From NCBI GenBank assembly GCA_029194465.1, contig JARFXS010000005.1:1-64000 (forward strand): 64,000 nt of DNA, written 5' to 3'. The notes below the pieces were generated by a model. It was not told where the DNA came from. It saw nothing but the letters and a program-made list of their open reading frames with translations, and did no database searches. The DNA comes from Candidatus Nitrosocosmicus sp. (GTDB lineage Archaea > Thermoproteota > Nitrososphaeria > Nitrososphaerales > Nitrososphaeraceae). The translations under genes and the position numbers were made by a program. This document shows positions 9,160 through 62,680 of this stretch, in pieces. How positions within the stretch are numbered: the first letter of the stretch is position 1; every line of letters starts with the position of its first letter.

Positions 9160-9534
9160 TTTTTGCTTTTCTTCTTATCCTGGACGTCTACCAAGGATTC
9201 ATTATTGTAATTTACACAATTATACAATCCATTAACTATTTCTGTTAGAACGGAATCACTTTCTTCAATAATCGTGTGATCCTTTCATTATTTAGATCGT
9301 AAAAGACATTCTTTCCTTCTCTTCTATTTCTAACTAGTCCGCAATCTAGCAGGCAAGATAAATGATTTGAAATATTTGATTGATTTTGATTAGTCTCCTT
9401 CACTATTTCTGAAGTAGTTTCTCTCCTCTTCGTAAAGATTCAAGAATAGAAAGTCTAGTAGTATCAGCCAAGCCTCTAAAAAGCTTGGCTTTCAAAGATA
9501 GTTTCTGTATATTGATTGATATATTATTACTCAA
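9156..9534 (-). pseudogene. ArsR/SmtB-family metal-sensing repressor, frameshifted
   Basis: Reading from a TTG at 9534, the first frame gives KLFRGLADTTRLSILESL, the winged-helix start of ArsR regulators. A one-base loss near 9420 shifts into ETNQNQSNISNHLSCL and LVRNRREGKNVFYDLNN, the recognition helix and wing. Another shift near 9283 leads to a tail containing LYNCVNY. The reconstructed length of about 125 residues is normal for the family. It ends at 9156, overlapping the TTG start of the copper ATPase pseudogene at 9159, so the two formed an operon in which this repressor probably sensed metal. Both members are damaged. Confidence 0.78.
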
Positions 9535-11855: not shown

Positions 11856-13428
11856 TTATTTGACATCATTGTTCTTCGAATCAGATACAGTTCGAATCAA
11901 ATGTAAGGAATATTCTTCTATTACTCTCAGAAAAGATCGATCGTAACCCAATTGAAGTTCATTACTAATCTTATTCATATAAAATGAAATTTGAAATAAA
12001 AGATTAAAAGCTCTTGTGAGTACGGTAACTTGTGAACTCAAATGACTGATCAAGACTAAATCCAAAATCCTTCTCGGTATAGAATCAATTAGGAAATCTT
12101 TCATGTCTTTATGAATGGAATAACTAACTATCCATTCATACATGAGTATCATATTTTCTAAATAGATTTTCCAGTATAAATCCAACTCCAAGGAATTAGA
12201 TGGATCTTCAATCTTTCTTCTCACAACTATTTCTCTAAATCTCGCGGATAATGCAGATACATTGTTCTTTCCATTCGTAAATTCATCGATAACAGAACTG
12301 AAAAGAGACTGATCTAATCCGAGTTGAATTAATTGAAGAATAGATGTCTTCAGAGATTCAATTGAACTAGAAATTAAATAGATATACCTTTCATGAGTTA
12401 ATATCGAATTAACATTTATTCGTTCATTGAGCAAATTAAGCTGTATAGAAATCAATCCAAGGAACAAGGAAAGGTTTCCTTCTGTTATTTTTTTTCGAGA
12501 AATCTTTTAACACATTATTTACCAGTGGAGAGGATGATTCTATTCTTAAACTGACCTTCTCCAATAGATATAAAATATTCAGCACTTCATTAGAGCTATC
12601 TTTTTTTACACGTATGGTCAATAATTCATTAAACTTAATAACTATAATACATAATTCTTTGAATTCAATTGTATTCCGAGCAATATCCGGTTTGAAAAGA
12701 TCTATCTTACCCGACATAATTTTCAGCACCATCGGTACAAGATTGTTACATTCTTCAAACTTAATTGATTTCACAGAACTTTCAAGCAAATGCTCAGTGA
12801 TCTTAAAACCGACCATTTGATTAATGTATGACGTGGATAAAATGTTGGAGATTGCTTTCTCTCCATGCTCCGAAGATTCCATTCTAGATGAATTCCCCTC
12901 CTTCACCAACAGTGTGAGGAGATAATCCATATCTTTATTTACCTCATCGATCATCGTTTCATTTTCTAATGGTGAACTAATATTTGAACTCAAAACCTTT
13001 ACTAATTTTTTTTGAATAATATCGATCAGAGGATTTATTCTTATTAAGTTAGAAATTGAATAGAAGTTATAATAAAGGAGTGGAAATGAGAACAAACAAA
13101 AGAAAAATATCATATTGATGAACTGCATTTCAGGAAGGAAAAAAAGTAGTGCAAAGGTCAATAACACCATCAGAGTTAACAAAGTGTAAGACATTATGAT
13201 ATCCGGATTTGCGAATATATATTGATGAAATTTTGGGTTATAATTAGGAATAAAATGTTGAAGCCCCAAGACAATGAAAGAAAACGCGACAGTTAATATT
13301 GTGGAAATTATTGTGCCAATGGTTACTACAATATTTCTGTAATCTTCTCTATTTTTCAATTCAAGGGATATGAACTCCTGTGTGAGCAACAAACAGGTAA
13401 TAAAAGTAAATGTCATCAAAATAGCCAT
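11856..13428 (-). pseudogene. Multi-helix membrane protein, frameshifted in an A8 run
   Basis: Two overlapping frames (start 13428; continuation to 11856) join into one protein of about 523 residues if one A is removed from the A8 run (T8 at 12488-12495). The junction then reads FSKKITEGNLSLFLGLIS, which flows naturally. The N-terminal 130 residues carry about four membrane helices (near 1-17, 32-55, 75-95 and 100-125). The remaining 390 residues are soluble, helical and rich in Leu, Ile, Glu and Lys, with no cysteine clusters or motifs I recognise. The layout resembles uncharacterised archaeal membrane proteins with a DUF2254-like arrangement, but I cannot assign a family. A single homopolymer indel may well be a sequencing error. 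Confidence 0.65.
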
Positions 13429-57206: not shown

Positions 57207-58151
57207 TCAACAATCAAAACTATATTCCTGCTTTCTCCTAAAATACTTTGTATCGCATACTATGGTGTCAAAAACAATTGGTATAAGATGCTGAAGTTAG
57301 CTAGAATGGTATGAAGATATTAATTGTTACTATGAACTAGTAATAAACAATATAATAACAAGGAGGACAAGGCCAGTGTTGAATGAGATGGTGAAGGAAA
57401 TAAGCAGTAAATCCAAATGTACAATCATTAAAAGTAATGGACGAATATTATAAACTAGAACAACAGATTAATTCAAAAGCCACTCACCTTACTATCGATT
57501 GGGAAGGATACAGAGAATTGTATTGATGGTCATATATCACTCTAGTTACTACCTACTATTGCAAAAAGATAACTTAATAGAATAAATTGTACGCATTTTA
57601 GGACGTAATGCATCTGGGCTGCCAAAATATAGAGAATCCTAATCCCGCATTTCGCATTTCCTTCTTTTCATCTAGAACTAAGAGGTTTGACCCAAAAATG
57701 AACCGACTTCAGTTAATAATTAGATAATTAAATATCGAGGATGTTAGCACAGTGACACCACAGAACCTTGTGTTTGAGAGGGTGGTGACAAACGAACGAT
57801 GGGTGGAAAGCCAGTATCATAGTGTCACAATAATTGTCTTTTATAATAATGAAGGTATACTCGATTCAGGAAACAACAAGACATTAAGGAGAATCTGGTA
57901 ACCATGATCATGCACAATGCGGGCTACAAACACATACCTTGACCACCTAATCTAATGAAGATCTCTAATAGCCAGTATGGTGGGTAGAAATTGACTCCCT
58001 TTTTACAATACTGAGTCTCTTCAAATTTGTTTGTCATTAGGAGTATTATTAATCATTTAGATTAACTATATTATTGGTTTGCAATAAATTAAATCATTTT
58101 GTTGCAACTAATAATCACTTTTTAAATATATTCGAATGTACATATCAATAA
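57207..58151. other. Long intergenic region with a tRNA-like repeat copy
   Basis: About 950 bases with no supported gene. At 57641-57660 lies AATCCCGCATTTCGCATTTC, a 17-of-20 match to 61444-61463. Upstream of 58152 are several TATA-like runs. Confidence 0.45.
57641..57660 (+). repeat. Copy 1 of a 20-nt tRNA-3'-end-like repeat
   Basis: 17 of 20 bases match 61444-61463. The match includes the 3' T-stem-like CCCGC and the following TTCGC. The upstream T-loop-like TTCAAAT present in the other copy is not conserved here. Confidence 0.4.
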
Positions 58152-58292
58152 ATGTATTTGCAACAAGATGTATCGAAAGCGTTAAAACGAAAACTTGTAG
58201 CACGATGCATTGAAGATTTAATATTCTCTGATATCGAATTTCAGTATTCAAAGGAAGATGTTATTTCATTAAATGAATCTAGTAAAATCTGA
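58152..58292 (+). CDS. 46-residue protein overlapping the zinc-finger gene start
   Basis: A small frame from ATG 58152 ending in TGA at 58290-58292, overlapping the ATG of the next gene (58273) by 20 bases. It is helical and charged (ALKRKLVARCIEDLIF, IEFQYSKEDVIS). Because the overlap matches operon-style coupling, it may be a real small protein, but composition is the only evidence. The paralogous locus at 53249 has no equivalent. Confidence 0.4.
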   Translation: MYLQQDVSKALKRKLVARCIEDLIFSDIEFQYSKEDVISLNESSKI

Positions 58293-58671
58293 AAATCCAT
58301 TCATAGTTGAAGCCAAAATCTGCGGTTGTTGCAATAATAAAAAGAGTGTTTCATATCATTACATAGAGTCTGGATACAACTTGTGTCTTGATAATATGGA
58401 AATAATATTTTCACAACTCCAAGCCTGTGAAAAACTATTAGAATTCGTAAAGGATGAAGCAGAAATATCGACCATTAAAAGAGAGATTGTAGATCTGCAT
58501 CTCGGTTTTGTTGCAAATAACATCCCTAAAATCAGAGAAAATGAGTATTGTACCTCATGCGGTTGTAATAAAAAGGCAATAATTTGTTGTACCCTATGTT
58601 CTGATTATCTCTGCTACAATCATTTACAAGGACACGGTCATTCAATGGATAACTTTGAAGTAAGGCCCTAA
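58273..58671 (+). CDS. Cys/His-rich protein with B-box-like zinc finger
   Basis: A 132-residue protein in two parts. Residues 12-65 match the shorter protein at 53249-53506 (CGC, HYIES, C, QACEKLL). A second cluster near 92-128 (CTSCGC, CCTLCSDYLCYNHL, HGHS) has the Cys/Cys/Cys-His-His order of B-box or RING-related zinc fingers and probably holds one or two zinc ions. Such fingers mediate protein or nucleic-acid contacts. The longer version may be a regulator with a finger that the shorter one lacks. Function unknown. Confidence 0.65.
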   Translation: MNLVKSENPFIVEAKICGCCNNKKSVSYHYIESGYNLCLDNMEIIFSQLQACEKLLEFVKDEAEISTIKREIVDLHLGFVANNIPKIRENEYCTSCGCNKKAIICCTLCSDYLCYNHLQGHGHSMDNFEVRP

Positions 58672-59135
58672 TCGGTTTATGTTTTGGCTATCATTGAAAT
58701 AAGATGACTAATCTCTGTAGAATTAACAAATAACATAACTGTTTCTAGTTGTAGATACGTAGAATATCGGGTCTTGCATACAGGTCGTGGAACTAGAGAT
58801 TATGCAAGACCCTTTTGGAATTGCTTTGGAGATTAAACGCTACTAACATGATGAGTTTAAAAATGAATTGTAACATCAGTCAGAGTCGCTTTGGTTACGA
58901 TTTAGTTTTGGACATCTATCTTAATTTTCATAATCTAATAATGGAATGCCCTTTACTTAAACACGATCTTTATTCTTGATAAGCTTTCTAATTCTTGTCT
59001 AGGCTTGGCTTGTTTGGTAGTTCCTTAGCACATTGTGAGGTCAAATCTAAAGAATCACAATAACACCAAAATATGAAATTAATAAAAAGATATGTTCTTG
59101 TCTAAAGAACTGAATTCTTGTTGTTAATCTAAGCT
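58672..59135. other. Intergenic region carrying repeat copy 1
   Basis: About 460 bases. Contains the hairpin element 58769-58812, which is a copy of the one at 60055-60093. No gene supported. Confidence 0.5.
58769..58812 (+). repeat. Structured intergenic element, copy 1
   Basis: Perfect 12-bp inverted repeat: GGGTCTTGCATA (58769-58780) and TATGCAAGACCC (58801-58812), with a 20-base loop containing CGTGGAACTAGA. A second copy at 60055-60093 keeps CATACA, CGTGGAACTAGA and TGCAAGACCCTT. Similarity continues weakly downstream through GTTTAAAAA. Could be a small RNA or a mobile miniature element; sequence alone does not decide. Confidence 0.6.
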
Positions 59136-59852
59136 TTATTGTTTGTTCGATTCAACCTGACCTATACCTTGACTTGCACTGTTTCCACTATTGCTATTGG
59201 TGTTATCATCGTTGTTGTTGTTACTATTGTCATTATTATCAGAAACGATGTTATCTGCAGGTTGAATATCTGTTACACATACAGCTTCTAACTCGTTATT
59301 ATCATTGAATTGCGGCGAAAGTTTGAAAGAAACTACATCGTCAACGTCAGTGCCGGGTGCAATAGTTAAATCATCTTGGCTCAAAGCATCTGTGCCTGAA
59401 AACGAACTAGGAATCTGAGTCAGGTCAGCATTTTCATCCTGTATGCGTATTTGGCCTGGAGATTCAAATGTAATTGATTTTACGGCGGGATCGTCACCAC
59501 AATTTTCAGAATCATCACCCAAGGTTACAAAATGATTGTGCCATACTGGATCATTGGCATTTGATTGTTCTTCGCTATCCAATACACCTGCATGAGTTGT
59601 ACTTACTACCACGGCATCCAAACCTTCAGAAGTTAACAAACCATAGCCAAATGCACCACCGTCACCATTTGTAGGAATATGACCATGTGTCTTTAGAAAT
59701 GCACTCATTTCATCTGAGTCAGCATCTACGGTGGCCTCACGAATGTTAAGGAAATCATCATCTGTTTCAGTGGATGCAAAGGCTAGGGCAAATGGTGAAG
59801 CCATTAATATCAAGAGCAATAATATAGAATATAATACTGTTTGATTTTTCAT
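59136..59852 (-). CDS. Secreted acidic protein of unknown function
   Basis: A 238-residue exported protein. Signal peptide to about residue 26 (LAFASTE). The mature part is acidic, with HxH-containing SEGLDAVVVSTTHAGVLDSEEQ, PVWHNHFVTLGDD, and two cysteines (NCGDD, VCVTDIQ) that may pair. The tail is almost entirely Asn, Asp and Ser. The WHNHF segment recalls the H-x-H segments of the MIRPDG proteins, but the rest differs. It is flanked on both sides by a copy of the structured repeat (58769 and 60055). Confidence 0.65.
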   Translation of the reverse strand: MKNQTVLYSILLLLILMASPFALAFASTETDDDFLNIREATVDADSDEMSAFLKTHGHIPTNGDGGAFGYGLLTSEGLDAVVVSTTHAGVLDSEEQSNANDPVWHNHFVTLGDDSENCGDDPAVKSITFESPGQIRIQDENADLTQIPSSFSGTDALSQDDLTIAPGTDVDDVVSFKLSPQFNDNNELEAVCVTDIQPADNIVSDNNDNSNNNNDDNTNSNSGNSASQGIGQVESNKQ

Positions 59853-60379
59853 AAATTCATGTTCTTATTGGCGTTATTTATGTATTTTGTATATCTATAG
59901 CAATTGTCCTAAATATTGAGGTTTCAGGCAAAATACATAGAAATCAAGGCCAAGATGGTTAGTGACCATGATACTTAAAATCTTAATGCAAGGATGAATA
60001 CAGATCTAACATTCGAGAAATCTTGAATTGGTAGAAGAGAATCACTAGAAAAACGGGGCTTACATACAACACGTGGAACTAGATGCAAGACCCTTCAGAA
60101 ACTATGTCGGGAGTTAATCTCACCGTTCCAATGGGTTTAAAAACATCATATATCGATAGTCATGCTTACTAAGGTTACAATTCTAGTATGAACAAAATTA
60201 ATTAAAATACCAACGTTGAGGATATTTTTGAAAGTAAAATCAGAGTGAACCAGTATGGTGATCGTGGATTCTCCTTATTATTCTTAGGGATTTGAACTAT
60301 CCAAAACAAAGAGCGAGTTCAAATAAATCTATTAAACCTTGATCTGGTGGAAAGATCAATTTAATCAATATCAACAGAC
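59853..60379. other. Intergenic region carrying repeat copy 2
   Basis: About 530 bases with no supported gene. Contains the second copy of the structured element at 60055-60093. Confidence 0.5.
60055..60093 (+). repeat. Structured intergenic element, copy 2
   Basis: GGGGCTTACATACA, then CGTGGAACTAGA and TGCAAGACCC, the diverged second copy of 58769-58812. The loop is shorter by four bases (GATT missing) and two mismatches weaken the stem. GGGAGTTAAT and GTTTAAAAA follow, similar to copy 1. Confidence 0.55.
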
Positions 60380-61360
60380 TTAATTGTGCTTCTGGATATT
60401 AAGACTCTTGACTTCATTCCAATGTTTCTCAAACAATATCTCTTGGAGAAGAATATTATATTTCTCGGTTGAGGTGAATGCAATTAACTGATTATTGATG
60501 TCATACTTTAATTGCAACATATATTTATCATCGCTTATAATTACACATTCCTTAAACTCAATCATTTTGTTTGAATGATTTAATTGGACTTTATTAAGCC
60601 GACTAGTATCGTTTATTATATTAATTTGGTTTAACAAAGTGTTTTCCTCATTATCAATCAGAAGTATGATTTTTACATTGCTTCTTAATAGCGAAGGAAA
60701 ATAATTTGCTACATCATTCCTACTTATGATATTACAGAGAATCTTTGTAGGAGAAAATATGATCAATTTCCTTTTGCATGTGATAATTAAAGAATCAATT
60801 TCATTTTGTAGGGCCTCTAAATCTACTATCATTTTCTTTTGACCAATCCTTTTTTCATACTCTAATTCCATCCTTCTTGTAGATAATGGGATAGCAATGT
60901 TCCACATTTTTTCAAAGAGTATTTTCTGTTTTTCTACCAGCTCTTTTGAATTACTCCATAGTGTTTGGTCGGGTTTATCGCTATCCCTATGAAATATACA
61001 TACCATATATGCCCTATTGTCAAATATTCCAAAGTTCCCCTTTATGTCATCTAGACAGCGTACCTCGTAATATTTTAACAAATCTATAGCATCAATATTT
61101 TCCAGTGTTGCTTCAACTATCAATCTGATTCTGATTCCATTTTGTTTAACTAATTTTTCAACGTATTCCATTCCTTCCTGAAAATACTTTCTAATAAAAT
61201 TGAATATGTTCGCATCCCAAACAGTATCATAGCCACATTCAATTATAGTCATCGAGTGAAAGACCATTTCAAGCATCCTATCATACTCAAACATGACCTC
61301 AGTGAGTATTGGGTAATAATACTTTGACTCTTTTAACTGTCGAAATGTTAAATCATCCAC
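60380..61360 (-). CDS. Orphan sensor-domain protein (kinase-associated type)
   Basis: A 326-residue soluble protein without a kinase or helix-turn-helix domain. The segment LWSNSKELVEKQKILFEKMWNIAIPLSTRRMELE closely resembles, from memory, a linker found in thaumarchaeal histidine kinases between their sensor region and transmitter. The N-terminal part (GIRIRLIVEATLENIDAI, LLKYYEVRCLDDIKGNFGIFDN) has a phospholipase-D-like alpha/beta look. The second half (IIFSPTKILCNII, NVKIILLIDNEEN, FTSTEKYNILLQEILFEKHWNEV) looks like a degenerate repeat of it. It may be a sensor partner acting in trans. No neighbouring kinase is encoded. Confidence 0.62.
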   Translation of the reverse strand: MDDLTFRQLKESKYYYPILTEVMFEYDRMLEMVFHSMTIIECGYDTVWDANIFNFIRKYFQEGMEYVEKLVKQNGIRIRLIVEATLENIDAIDLLKYYEVRCLDDIKGNFGIFDNRAYMVCIFHRDSDKPDQTLWSNSKELVEKQKILFEKMWNIAIPLSTRRMELEYEKRIGQKKMIVDLEALQNEIDSLIITCKRKLIIFSPTKILCNIISRNDVANYFPSLLRSNVKIILLIDNEENTLLNQINIINDTSRLNKVQLNHSNKMIEFKECVIISDDKYMLQLKYDINNQLIAFTSTEKYNILLQEILFEKHWNEVKSLNIQKHN

Positions 61361-61437
61361 TATATTGTATTACTAGTCCATTTATTAAAAAAGTTGTCTT
61401 AATAAGTGTGCACGTGACGAATACCTTTCCGGTTTCG

Positions 61438-61463
61438 GCTTCAAATCCCGCACTTCGCGCTTC
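61438..61463 (+). repeat. tRNA 3'-end-like remnant, copy 2 of the 20-nt repeat
   Basis: GGCTTCAAATCCCGC carries a T-loop (TTCAAAT) and 3' T-stem, followed by ACTTCGCG like an acceptor strand, but no tRNA 5' half lies upstream. The opposite-strand translation RSAGFE is typical of tRNA antisense. Bases 61444-61463 match 57641-57660 at 17 of 20 positions. Interpreted as a remnant of a tRNA or attachment site. Confidence 0.45.
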
Positions 61464-61595
61464 TATTAAGAATGATTTGAACCCGCTAACGATTTGATTA
61501 ATCTTAAATATGAAATGGTTAAGGAAGTTAACACGGTAATCTTTAGAAGTATAATTATTAGTTATTGTTATATTGACAATTCTAACTAGCATTGT

Positions 61596-62141
61596 ATGAA
61601 TAAAACTGACAGAGTAGAAATGATGCAAAAAAGGACTATTCAATTAACGGTTATCTTAGTTGTATTTGTGGGCATGATGGTATTTCTGGTTCCAACTCTG
61701 ATTGAAGAAGCAGAGGCAAAGATTCAGGGTAAAGCGATGGCTGCTGGTGGTGGTGGTAACCTGTTTTCTAATATTGTAGGTAAAATGTCTGAAGGTCGTT
61801 TCTTTGAAGGTCCAGAAGATTTTCGTGGTGTTTTCATCACTTGGACTACGCTACCGATTTACCCCGGTGGCCCTGAGAAAGGCACTATTGAAGCCAATTT
61901 TGGGAATTTAGGCAAGGTGACGTTCTCATTCAATCATCCTTCCTCTGGCCCTAATACCTGCGAAGTCACACATGGTCCCGGCATAATAGCCTCATGTGGT
62001 ATAAGTGATGGTAGTAATGCAAACGTTTCCTTTTTAGTTTACAGAGGCTCTGGAAATAACAATAATAATTTCTGTGATATACTGCCCAAAATAGGTGGAC
62101 TTGACCAATTGAAGATAATTAGGGAGAAACTACACTGCTAA
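61596..62141 (+). CDS. Secreted hypothetical protein
   Basis: A 181-residue protein with a hydrophobic N-terminal export segment at about 15-35 and a Gly-rich stretch after it (MAAGGGGN). The mature domain has two cysteines (NTCEVTH, IASCGIS) that may pair and beta-rich sequences (GVFITWTTLPIYPGG). No family recognised. It is followed by an open frame that overlaps the tRNA gene. Confidence 0.6.
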   Translation: MNKTDRVEMMQKRTIQLTVILVVFVGMMVFLVPTLIEEAEAKIQGKAMAAGGGGNLFSNIVGKMSEGRFFEGPEDFRGVFITWTTLPIYPGGPEKGTIEANFGNLGKVTFSFNHPSSGPNTCEVTHGPGIIASCGISDGSNANVSFLVYRGSGNNNNNFCDILPKIGGLDQLKIIREKLHC

Positions 62142-62215
62142 CGCATGAACAGGATCAAATTCTATTCATTTTTAATAATCAATAATCCTTTTATCTTTGA
62201 CAAATAAGTTAAATC

Positions 62216-62680
62216 ATGTCACTTCTCTCCAAAGCCGAAGTTCAATACTTGCAGGGACAAAAAGTCGTTTCAAGGTCATATGAAAGGAAGTTAAAATGTA
62301 TTAACAGAAGGAAGGTCGAAGGGTTAAAGAGAGACAATCTTCTTGTATCTAAGATAATTCCCATAGAACAAATATTTAGTTTTGAGGATCTGGATGTTGT
62401 CGGGAAGGCGAAAACAGACATAAAGCCAGCTACTAAAATCAGTAATCCCAAGATATCTTTAATTGGCGCTGCTGAATTCAGTAGCGCAAGCGATAACTAC
62501 TATGAAAATATTTCAAGAAATTCAAATAATAATATAAATCCTACAAGATTAAACCATGACAAATTATATAACTGCGCCGATTTTATACATCCCAAGGGGG
62601 TCCGTAGCGTAGTCAGGATATCGCGGCGGTCTTCGGAACCGCAGGTCATGGGATCGAAGCCCACCGGGCCCGCCTTATAA
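62216..62680 (+). CDS. Conserved-looking protein with a frame running through tRNA-Arg
   Basis: A 154-codon frame. The first 45 residues (LLSKAEVQYLQGQKVVSRSYERKLK) look like a conserved thaumarchaeal basic helical protein, recalled from memory and not checked. The last part (about residues 117-154) translates the tRNA promoter and the whole tRNA-Arg gene at 62598-62672. That is implausible as protein sequence. The real C terminus is therefore probably earlier, through an indel or a different end that I cannot locate. The tail from about 62560 should be disregarded. Confidence 0.5.
   Translation: MSLLSKAEVQYLQGQKVVSRSYERKLKCINRRKVEGLKRDNLLVSKIIPIEQIFSFEDLDVVGKAKTDIKPATKISNPKISLIGAAEFSSASDNYYENISRNSNNNINPTRLNHDKLYNCADFIHPKGVRSVVRISRRSSEPQVMGSKPTGPAL
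62563..62570 (+). promoter_or_regulatory. TATA box of tRNA-Arg
   Basis: ATTATATA ends 27 bases before the first tRNA base at 62598, the normal archaeal tRNA promoter spacing. Confidence 0.55.
62598..62672 (+). tRNA. tRNA-Arg (anticodon TCG)
   Basis: A complete cloverleaf of 75 bases. Acceptor GGGTCCG (62598-62604) pairs with CGGGCCC (62665-62671) with one T-G pair, and the discriminator is G62672. The D stem is GCG/CGC at 62607-62609 and 62622-62624. The anticodon stem is GCGGT/ACCGC at 62626-62630 and 62638-62642, with loop CTTCGGA, so the anticodon is TCG at 62633-62635 and reads CGN arginine codons. The T stem is ATGGG/CCCAC with one end mismatch and loop ATCGAAG. There is no intron and no encoded CCA. 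A 16-base copy of its 3' end follows at 62712-62727. Confidence 0.93.

Follow-up and report, generated by a model that had tools for sequence, protein, structure and literature searches.

A dispersed hairpin-bearing spacer element mainly at gene 3' ends in Nitrosocosmicus that may mark sites of gene-cassette exchange

Known hairpin repeats and the element family

Integron cassette arrays consist of exchangeable genes surrounded by hairpin-forming attC sites in direct orientation. Short, dispersed, non-coding sequences are also known as MITEs. REP/BIME sequences, of which the REPs are palindromic (PMC2817692), and the RU-1 and RU-2 repeats of 127 and 168 bp (PMC2759123) are short and dispersed in bacterial intergenic DNA, and chloroplast genomes, for example those of Lauraceae, contain short stem-loops, located mostly in spacers, with small inversions that flip the loop, for which a role in mRNA stability has been cited (PMC6824564). 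The element described here belongs to an already familiar kind, the dispersed non-coding structured repeat, and nevertheless differs from each of these systems. In contrast to the chloroplast hairpins, it is conserved in sequence, dispersed in multiple copies over archaeal chromosomes and followed by a conserved tail, and its loop is flipped in two of 49 cases. Compared with REP/BIME and RU-1/RU-2 it is low in copy number, tied to particular gene families and located in Nitrososphaeraceae, and an undirected look noticed no associated REP transposase. Unlike MITEs it has no detected terminal inverted repeats or target-site duplications, and unlike attC it has neither a linked integrase nor a fixed crossover point. 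The element family, its tie to the ends of secreted-protein genes and its mosaic junctions appear to be undescribed in the searchable literature.

The window, by which we mean the whole 64,000-nucleotide stretch that was analysed, contains two full units on the + strand, copy 1 at 58758-58928 (covariance model R1, 164.9 bits, E 2.5e-28) and copy 2 at 60044-60208 (134.2 bits, E 1.2e-22). R1 was built from 23 copies found by blastn, including copies 1 and 2, and was used with a match threshold of E <= 0.01. A first-pass annotation, made from the sequence alone, had reported two copies with similarity extending past the hairpin; this holds for both units over their full conserved length, while a third, decayed copy without hairpin (57454-57579, +, 37.1 bits, E 9e-5), which was not part of the training set, had been missed. 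For copy 1, the reported inverted repeat, perfect over 12 bp and enclosing a 20-base loop, is confirmed by 12 of 12 complementary positions (arms 58769-58780 and 58801-58812, loop 58781-58800, +), and the RNA fold reaches -20.9 kcal/mol on the + strand and -19.7 kcal/mol on the - strand, with z values against shuffles of -4.3 and -5.5, respectively. Copy 2 was rightly described as having the same core with a weaker stem: it retains the loop core CGTGGAACTAGA (60072-60083) and the right arm ATGCAAGACCC (60083-60093), and its + strand hairpin (arms 60055-60065 and 60083-60093) is weak because of two substitutions in the left arm, so that the fold is no better than shuffles on the + strand (z -0.4; - strand, z -2.1).

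Alignments define a unit of approximately 165 bp that comprises a hairpin, a conserved tail and a near-invariant TTTAAAA or TTTATAA box. The hairpin reads GGGTCTTGCAT-loop-ATGCAAGACCC, with a loop of variable length, and is followed by a conserved stretch; the box lies about 45 nt 3' of the stem in nearly all full-length copies (TTTAAAA at 58856-58862, +, in copy 1, as placed by alignments A1 and A2; TTTATAA in some others). Blocks such as CTATGGTTAC and TTTTGAACA follow 3' of the box and end near position 157. Over 57 copies, 91.6% of the stem cells are paired. Eight two-sided stem changes were counted against a shuffled mean of 2.9, a number reached in 2 of 500 shuffles; they are confined to three of the ten stem pairs, and that pair count alone is unexceptional. 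As the sequence of the arms is itself conserved, there is only modest covariation of base pairs. Column covariation yielded no second helix, the top pairs being mostly non-complementary and forming no helix. A small conserved ORF running through the tail was ruled out because the TTTATAA copies carry a stop in frame, and a C/D-box guide RNA was rejected since only a single subgroup carries the box C-like ATGATGA.

Copies 1 and 2 are members of a real dispersed and unnamed family, beyond chance. The genome-wide search proposed in the first-pass annotation, started with 231 bp around copy 1, returned 24 copies by blastn in seven genomes, all from a single genus; the genome to which the window belongs has seven copies. 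The covariance model, likewise proposed there, raised this to 61 matches in nine of the 15 Nitrosocosmicus genomes, most of them aligned over the full 169 positions and 13 located in the closed genome G005; the other six genomes gave zero matches. A search of 70 genomes from the family gave matches in a single genus outside Nitrosocosmicus (g11), with two confident copies in G078 and weak matches in two more genomes. The exact hairpin pattern, scanned in 84,980 genomes, also matched bacteria with no relation to the genus, which is the chance expectation for a palindrome with a gap, whereas strong model scores among these pattern matches were limited to Nitrososphaeria; viral contigs contained no exact hairpin match. 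The statement that the core belongs to no named family also stands, as an Rfam search of the window returned tRNA only, with sub-threshold matches at chance level near the elements. The element is nearly restricted to one genus, structured, intergenic and unnamed. Locus L141 (6143-6185), which comes from a MAG of the Nitrososphaeraceae, has the hairpin arms of the element around a loop that contains ATGGTTACAAT; this sequence resembles the element's tail block CTATGGTTACAAT, and the remainder of that locus is not conserved.

Position relative to neighbouring genes

The element sits mainly at gene 3' ends and often between convergent genes. When the flanks were searched with the flanking proteins, coding homology on the right read toward the element in 30 of 35 cases and on the left in 18 of 31, and the left-flank genes nearest the hairpin present mostly their 3' ends, many of them at a distance of about 12 nt. 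A stem-loop immediately behind the stop codon, as looked for in a 3'-end hairpin element, is present in many genes that share a C-terminal domain (..DLIKGIIQNPLDITNSIDSANEIRDILTDN..LVCDLI.SENEYTSNIREILNC*), the hairpin starting about 12 nt after the stop. The element or a truncated or decayed form of it trails most genes whose copy of this domain ends within the analysed loci, the exceptions being loci L154, L165 and L172. On the other side, the right edge often abuts an opposite-strand gene that belongs to either of two small families without characterised members, fam2 (MPKFLFQPDPIDGYEF.., approximately 105 aa) and fam1 (MNIIESEIPYLVEARTCGC.., 84 aa). An equivalent arrangement of genes and element, in decayed form, is present in the other genus. 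Genes of fam1 and fam2 also occur in genomes lacking the element, and the association is therefore not obligatory. A consensus scan of 58600-60400 for intrinsic terminators, with a GC-rich stem ahead of a U-run, gave zero matches, although it allows loops of at most 8 nt and is blind to the hairpin in question.

In the window, the spacers had been called gene-free, but the one beside copy 2 contains a decayed 3' end of a C-terminal-domain gene (about 59991-60034, +, ..DEYRSNIREILNW*; alignment score 74, shuffled maximum 42), whose stop lies about 20 nt before the hairpin of copy 2. To the right of copy 1, the segment 58935-59015 (-) is likely a second remnant, the decayed 3' end of a fam2 gene (MPKFLFQPDPIDGYEF..), judged by similarities of 82% to G000:C62:2114-2200 and of 85% to the fam2 3' end at G013:1062172-1062218; when it was aligned directly with a single fam2 gene, C207, the score did not rise above shuffles. 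With these remnants beside copies 1 and 2, the spacers look like relics of the repeated convergent arrangement. A fam1-like gene with a cysteine-rich C terminus (58273-58671, +, an ORF with 53% to fam1) ends about 98 nt before the hairpin of copy 1, and a fam4 gene (60380-61360, -, ORF) points its 3' end toward copy 2, within a stretch (60286-61480) that is 92% identical to G013:3354214-3355377. The 132-aa product of the fam1-like gene resembles fam1 in its N-terminal part, and its C terminus shows a sub-threshold match to the C-terminal domain of Tc5 transposases.

The secreted-gene cassette and mosaic copies

Copies 1 and 2 lie in direct orientation on either side of a gene for a secreted protein (59136-59852, -, an ORF of 238 aa with a signal-peptide-like start) that has no match in Pfam or NCBIfam; their starts are 1,286 bp apart, in agreement with the approximately 1.29 kb given in the first-pass annotation. 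At 92% identity, the cassette 58802-60195 has a homologue at G013:3363824-3365228, which is also enclosed by two direct copies. The homologue is located at 3.36 Mb of the closed genome G013, 2.2 Mb away from the collinear position near 1.13 Mb, and its flanks differ.

All three copies of the window fall into a variable slot beside a tRNA-Arg gene (57386-62415), the flanks of which are collinear with G013. To the left, 44001-57385 matches G013 as one block at 94%; to the right, 62416-62672, which ends in tRNA-Arg (62598-62674), is 95% identical and comes next in the same place. The slot holds 5.0 kb in the window versus an unrelated 1.8 kb without elements in G013. Within it, 57518-57956 is 80% identical to G013:3368189-3368636, whose start falls within the G013 copy at 3368575. 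The genome of the window is assembled in 263 contigs and is 84% complete, and this fragmentation makes a misjoin at 57385 or elsewhere possible; the contig of G013, however, is closed.

Homology between species breaks inside the element. Copy 1 reaches 93% identity with the corresponding G013 copy only to the right of about +90, and its left part resembles G000:C177 and G013:1061111, while copy 2 matches its counterpart at 90-100% only to the left of about +10 and resembles G000:C52 in its right part (copy 2 is 89% identical to G000:C52:7758-8066 over approximately 308 bp). Mosaic switches of a similar kind occur inside G012 and G013. The breakpoint positions are approximate and the exchange events are few. 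Copies cluster beyond random expectation in the closed genomes G005 (P 0.0009) and G013 (P 0.00015), with six of seven close pairs in closed genomes in the same orientation; the third closed genome, G007, showed no clustering. The spacers appear to be places where flanking DNA has been swapped, and loss or gain of cassettes through recombination of one direct copy with another, such as excision of a circle followed by reintegration, would fit the observations without being proven by them. Ordinary genome plasticity could also mimic exchange at the element.

Loop inversion and competing explanations

According to PMC8604942, template switching between short inverted repeats makes the arms homogeneous and leaves the spacer inverted, and a comparable flip-flop of loops is found in plastid hairpins (PMC6824564). 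In our set of 49 loops, two had a clearly better score when reversed. The copy at G005:436338 has the arms of G005:873975 with a loop that is the exact reverse complement, and the loop of G005:1867585 is inverted relative to G005:634184. Two inverted loops are what template switching at inverted repeats would be expected to leave, and they support a process at the DNA level acting on the inverted repeat. Since template switching homogenises the arms, arm identity alone is no proof of selection on an RNA.

The explanation that we tentatively prefer, at a little under an even chance, is a 3'-end hairpin element that is dispersed by recombination and acts as a junction for cassette exchange. At the RNA level, the hairpin would serve transcript termination or the stability of mRNA ends, possibly for both convergent transcripts. 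At the DNA level, the short inverted repeat would be held near-perfect, and its loop occasionally flipped, by template switching, and recombination among the dispersed copies would swap flanking DNA. By such an exchange, cassettes with a direct copy at either end, of which the secreted-protein gene is one, would be lost, gained or relocated, for which a dedicated recombinase or transposase would not be required. The conservation of the tail and of the TTTAAAA box is unaccounted for by this explanation. The spacers may be markers of gene-cassette exchange sites in soil ammonia-oxidising archaea (Nitrosocosmicus). If so, a major group of soil nitrifiers has a compact non-coding element that marks where secreted-protein genes are exchanged, and the element provides a natural archaeal series for following inverted-repeat homogenisation and loop inversion; with the covariance model, annotators could also put a name to spacers that now carry no label, as many as about a dozen in a genome. 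A more far-reaching version, which we regard as decidedly improbable, holds that direct copies bracket secreted-protein genes as a cassette-exchange system of ammonia-oxidising archaea, in which the hairpin itself actively drives excision and reinsertion at other copies, be it by folding as a single strand, by breakage or with the help of some recombinase, and so diversifies secreted proteins without an integron integrase.

The first-pass annotation had suggested a small-RNA family or a miniature element. The notion of a dispersed unnamed family has held, but in the sense of a MITE, or of an IS200/IS605-like derivative with subterminal hairpins inserting preferentially behind genes, the second suggestion is unlikely. 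Dispersed copies of similar length, their high turnover between species, the hairpin at one edge and the location in a variable slot beside a tRNA gene would all suit such an element. However, the longest exact match between the left and right ends of 48 copies is 3-7 bp, leaving no terminal inverted repeat, and the check for target-site duplications recommended in that annotation found no excess, as match lengths did not exceed those of mismatched flank pairs, a comparison in which uncertain boundaries could hide short duplications. Moreover, copies share flanking gene ends past the element, no longer, transposase-bearing copy was seen, and the flanks of five copies from the window's own genome found no orthologous empty site among the genomes of the genus, the G013 slot differing as a whole. 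No transposase was prominent in the lists of flanking ORFs except a DDE-like ORF near G005:634184. A small-RNA gene family, in which TTTAAAA/TTTATAA would be the TATA box and the transcript would be either the hairpin or the conserved tail, is rather unlikely as well. It would account for the retention of the box in nearly all full-length copies, for the extension of the conserved tail past the stem and for the strong fold of copy 1, but the lack of a covarying second helix and of any Rfam match weighs against it. Furthermore, in 162 upstream regions, a small sample, the enrichment at the promoter position was for TTATA/TATATA and not for TTTAAAA, which weakens the candidacy of the latter as a TATA box.

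We consider it improbable that the spacers are mere relics, by now without function, of a repeatedly duplicated gene module (C-terminal-domain gene, spacer, fam2). The gene remnants beside the window copies and the many decayed copies agree with this view, and arm homogenisation by template switching could preserve a stem without function; yet the stem of copy 1 is perfect and its model score high even with the neighbouring module genes gone or decayed, and the level of stem pairing noted above was reached across divergent copies. Very improbable, finally, is an attC-like recombination site at which a tyrosine recombinase acting in trans shuffles cassettes of secreted-protein genes. Here, the hairpin-forming site, the mostly direct orientation within clusters, the conserved cassette interior between different flanks and an N-terminal integrase remnant near G013:1061111 are opposed by breakpoints that appear spread over approximately 80 bp instead of one point, by a cassette gene that is not co-oriented with the element, and by Pfam Phage_integrase matches that are not consistently near copies in the closed genomes, so that an association with integrases is not systematic. 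An attachment to tRNA genes was likewise dismissed, as elements lie near tRNA-Val in some genomes, inconsistently. In contig G000:C185 (locus L109), a partial duplication of the 5' part of tRNA-Val (~9162-9265 and ~11919-12022) flanks an element-bearing stretch, and the same contig has a weak integrase match at 12505-13056. A second short hairpin repeat, GGGATTTGAAC..GTTCAAATCCC, of approximately 40-50 nt and resembling two inverted tRNA T-arms, was observed at 61436-61487 and 60287-60326 of the window as well as in loci L099, L105, L107 and L115, sometimes close to the element.
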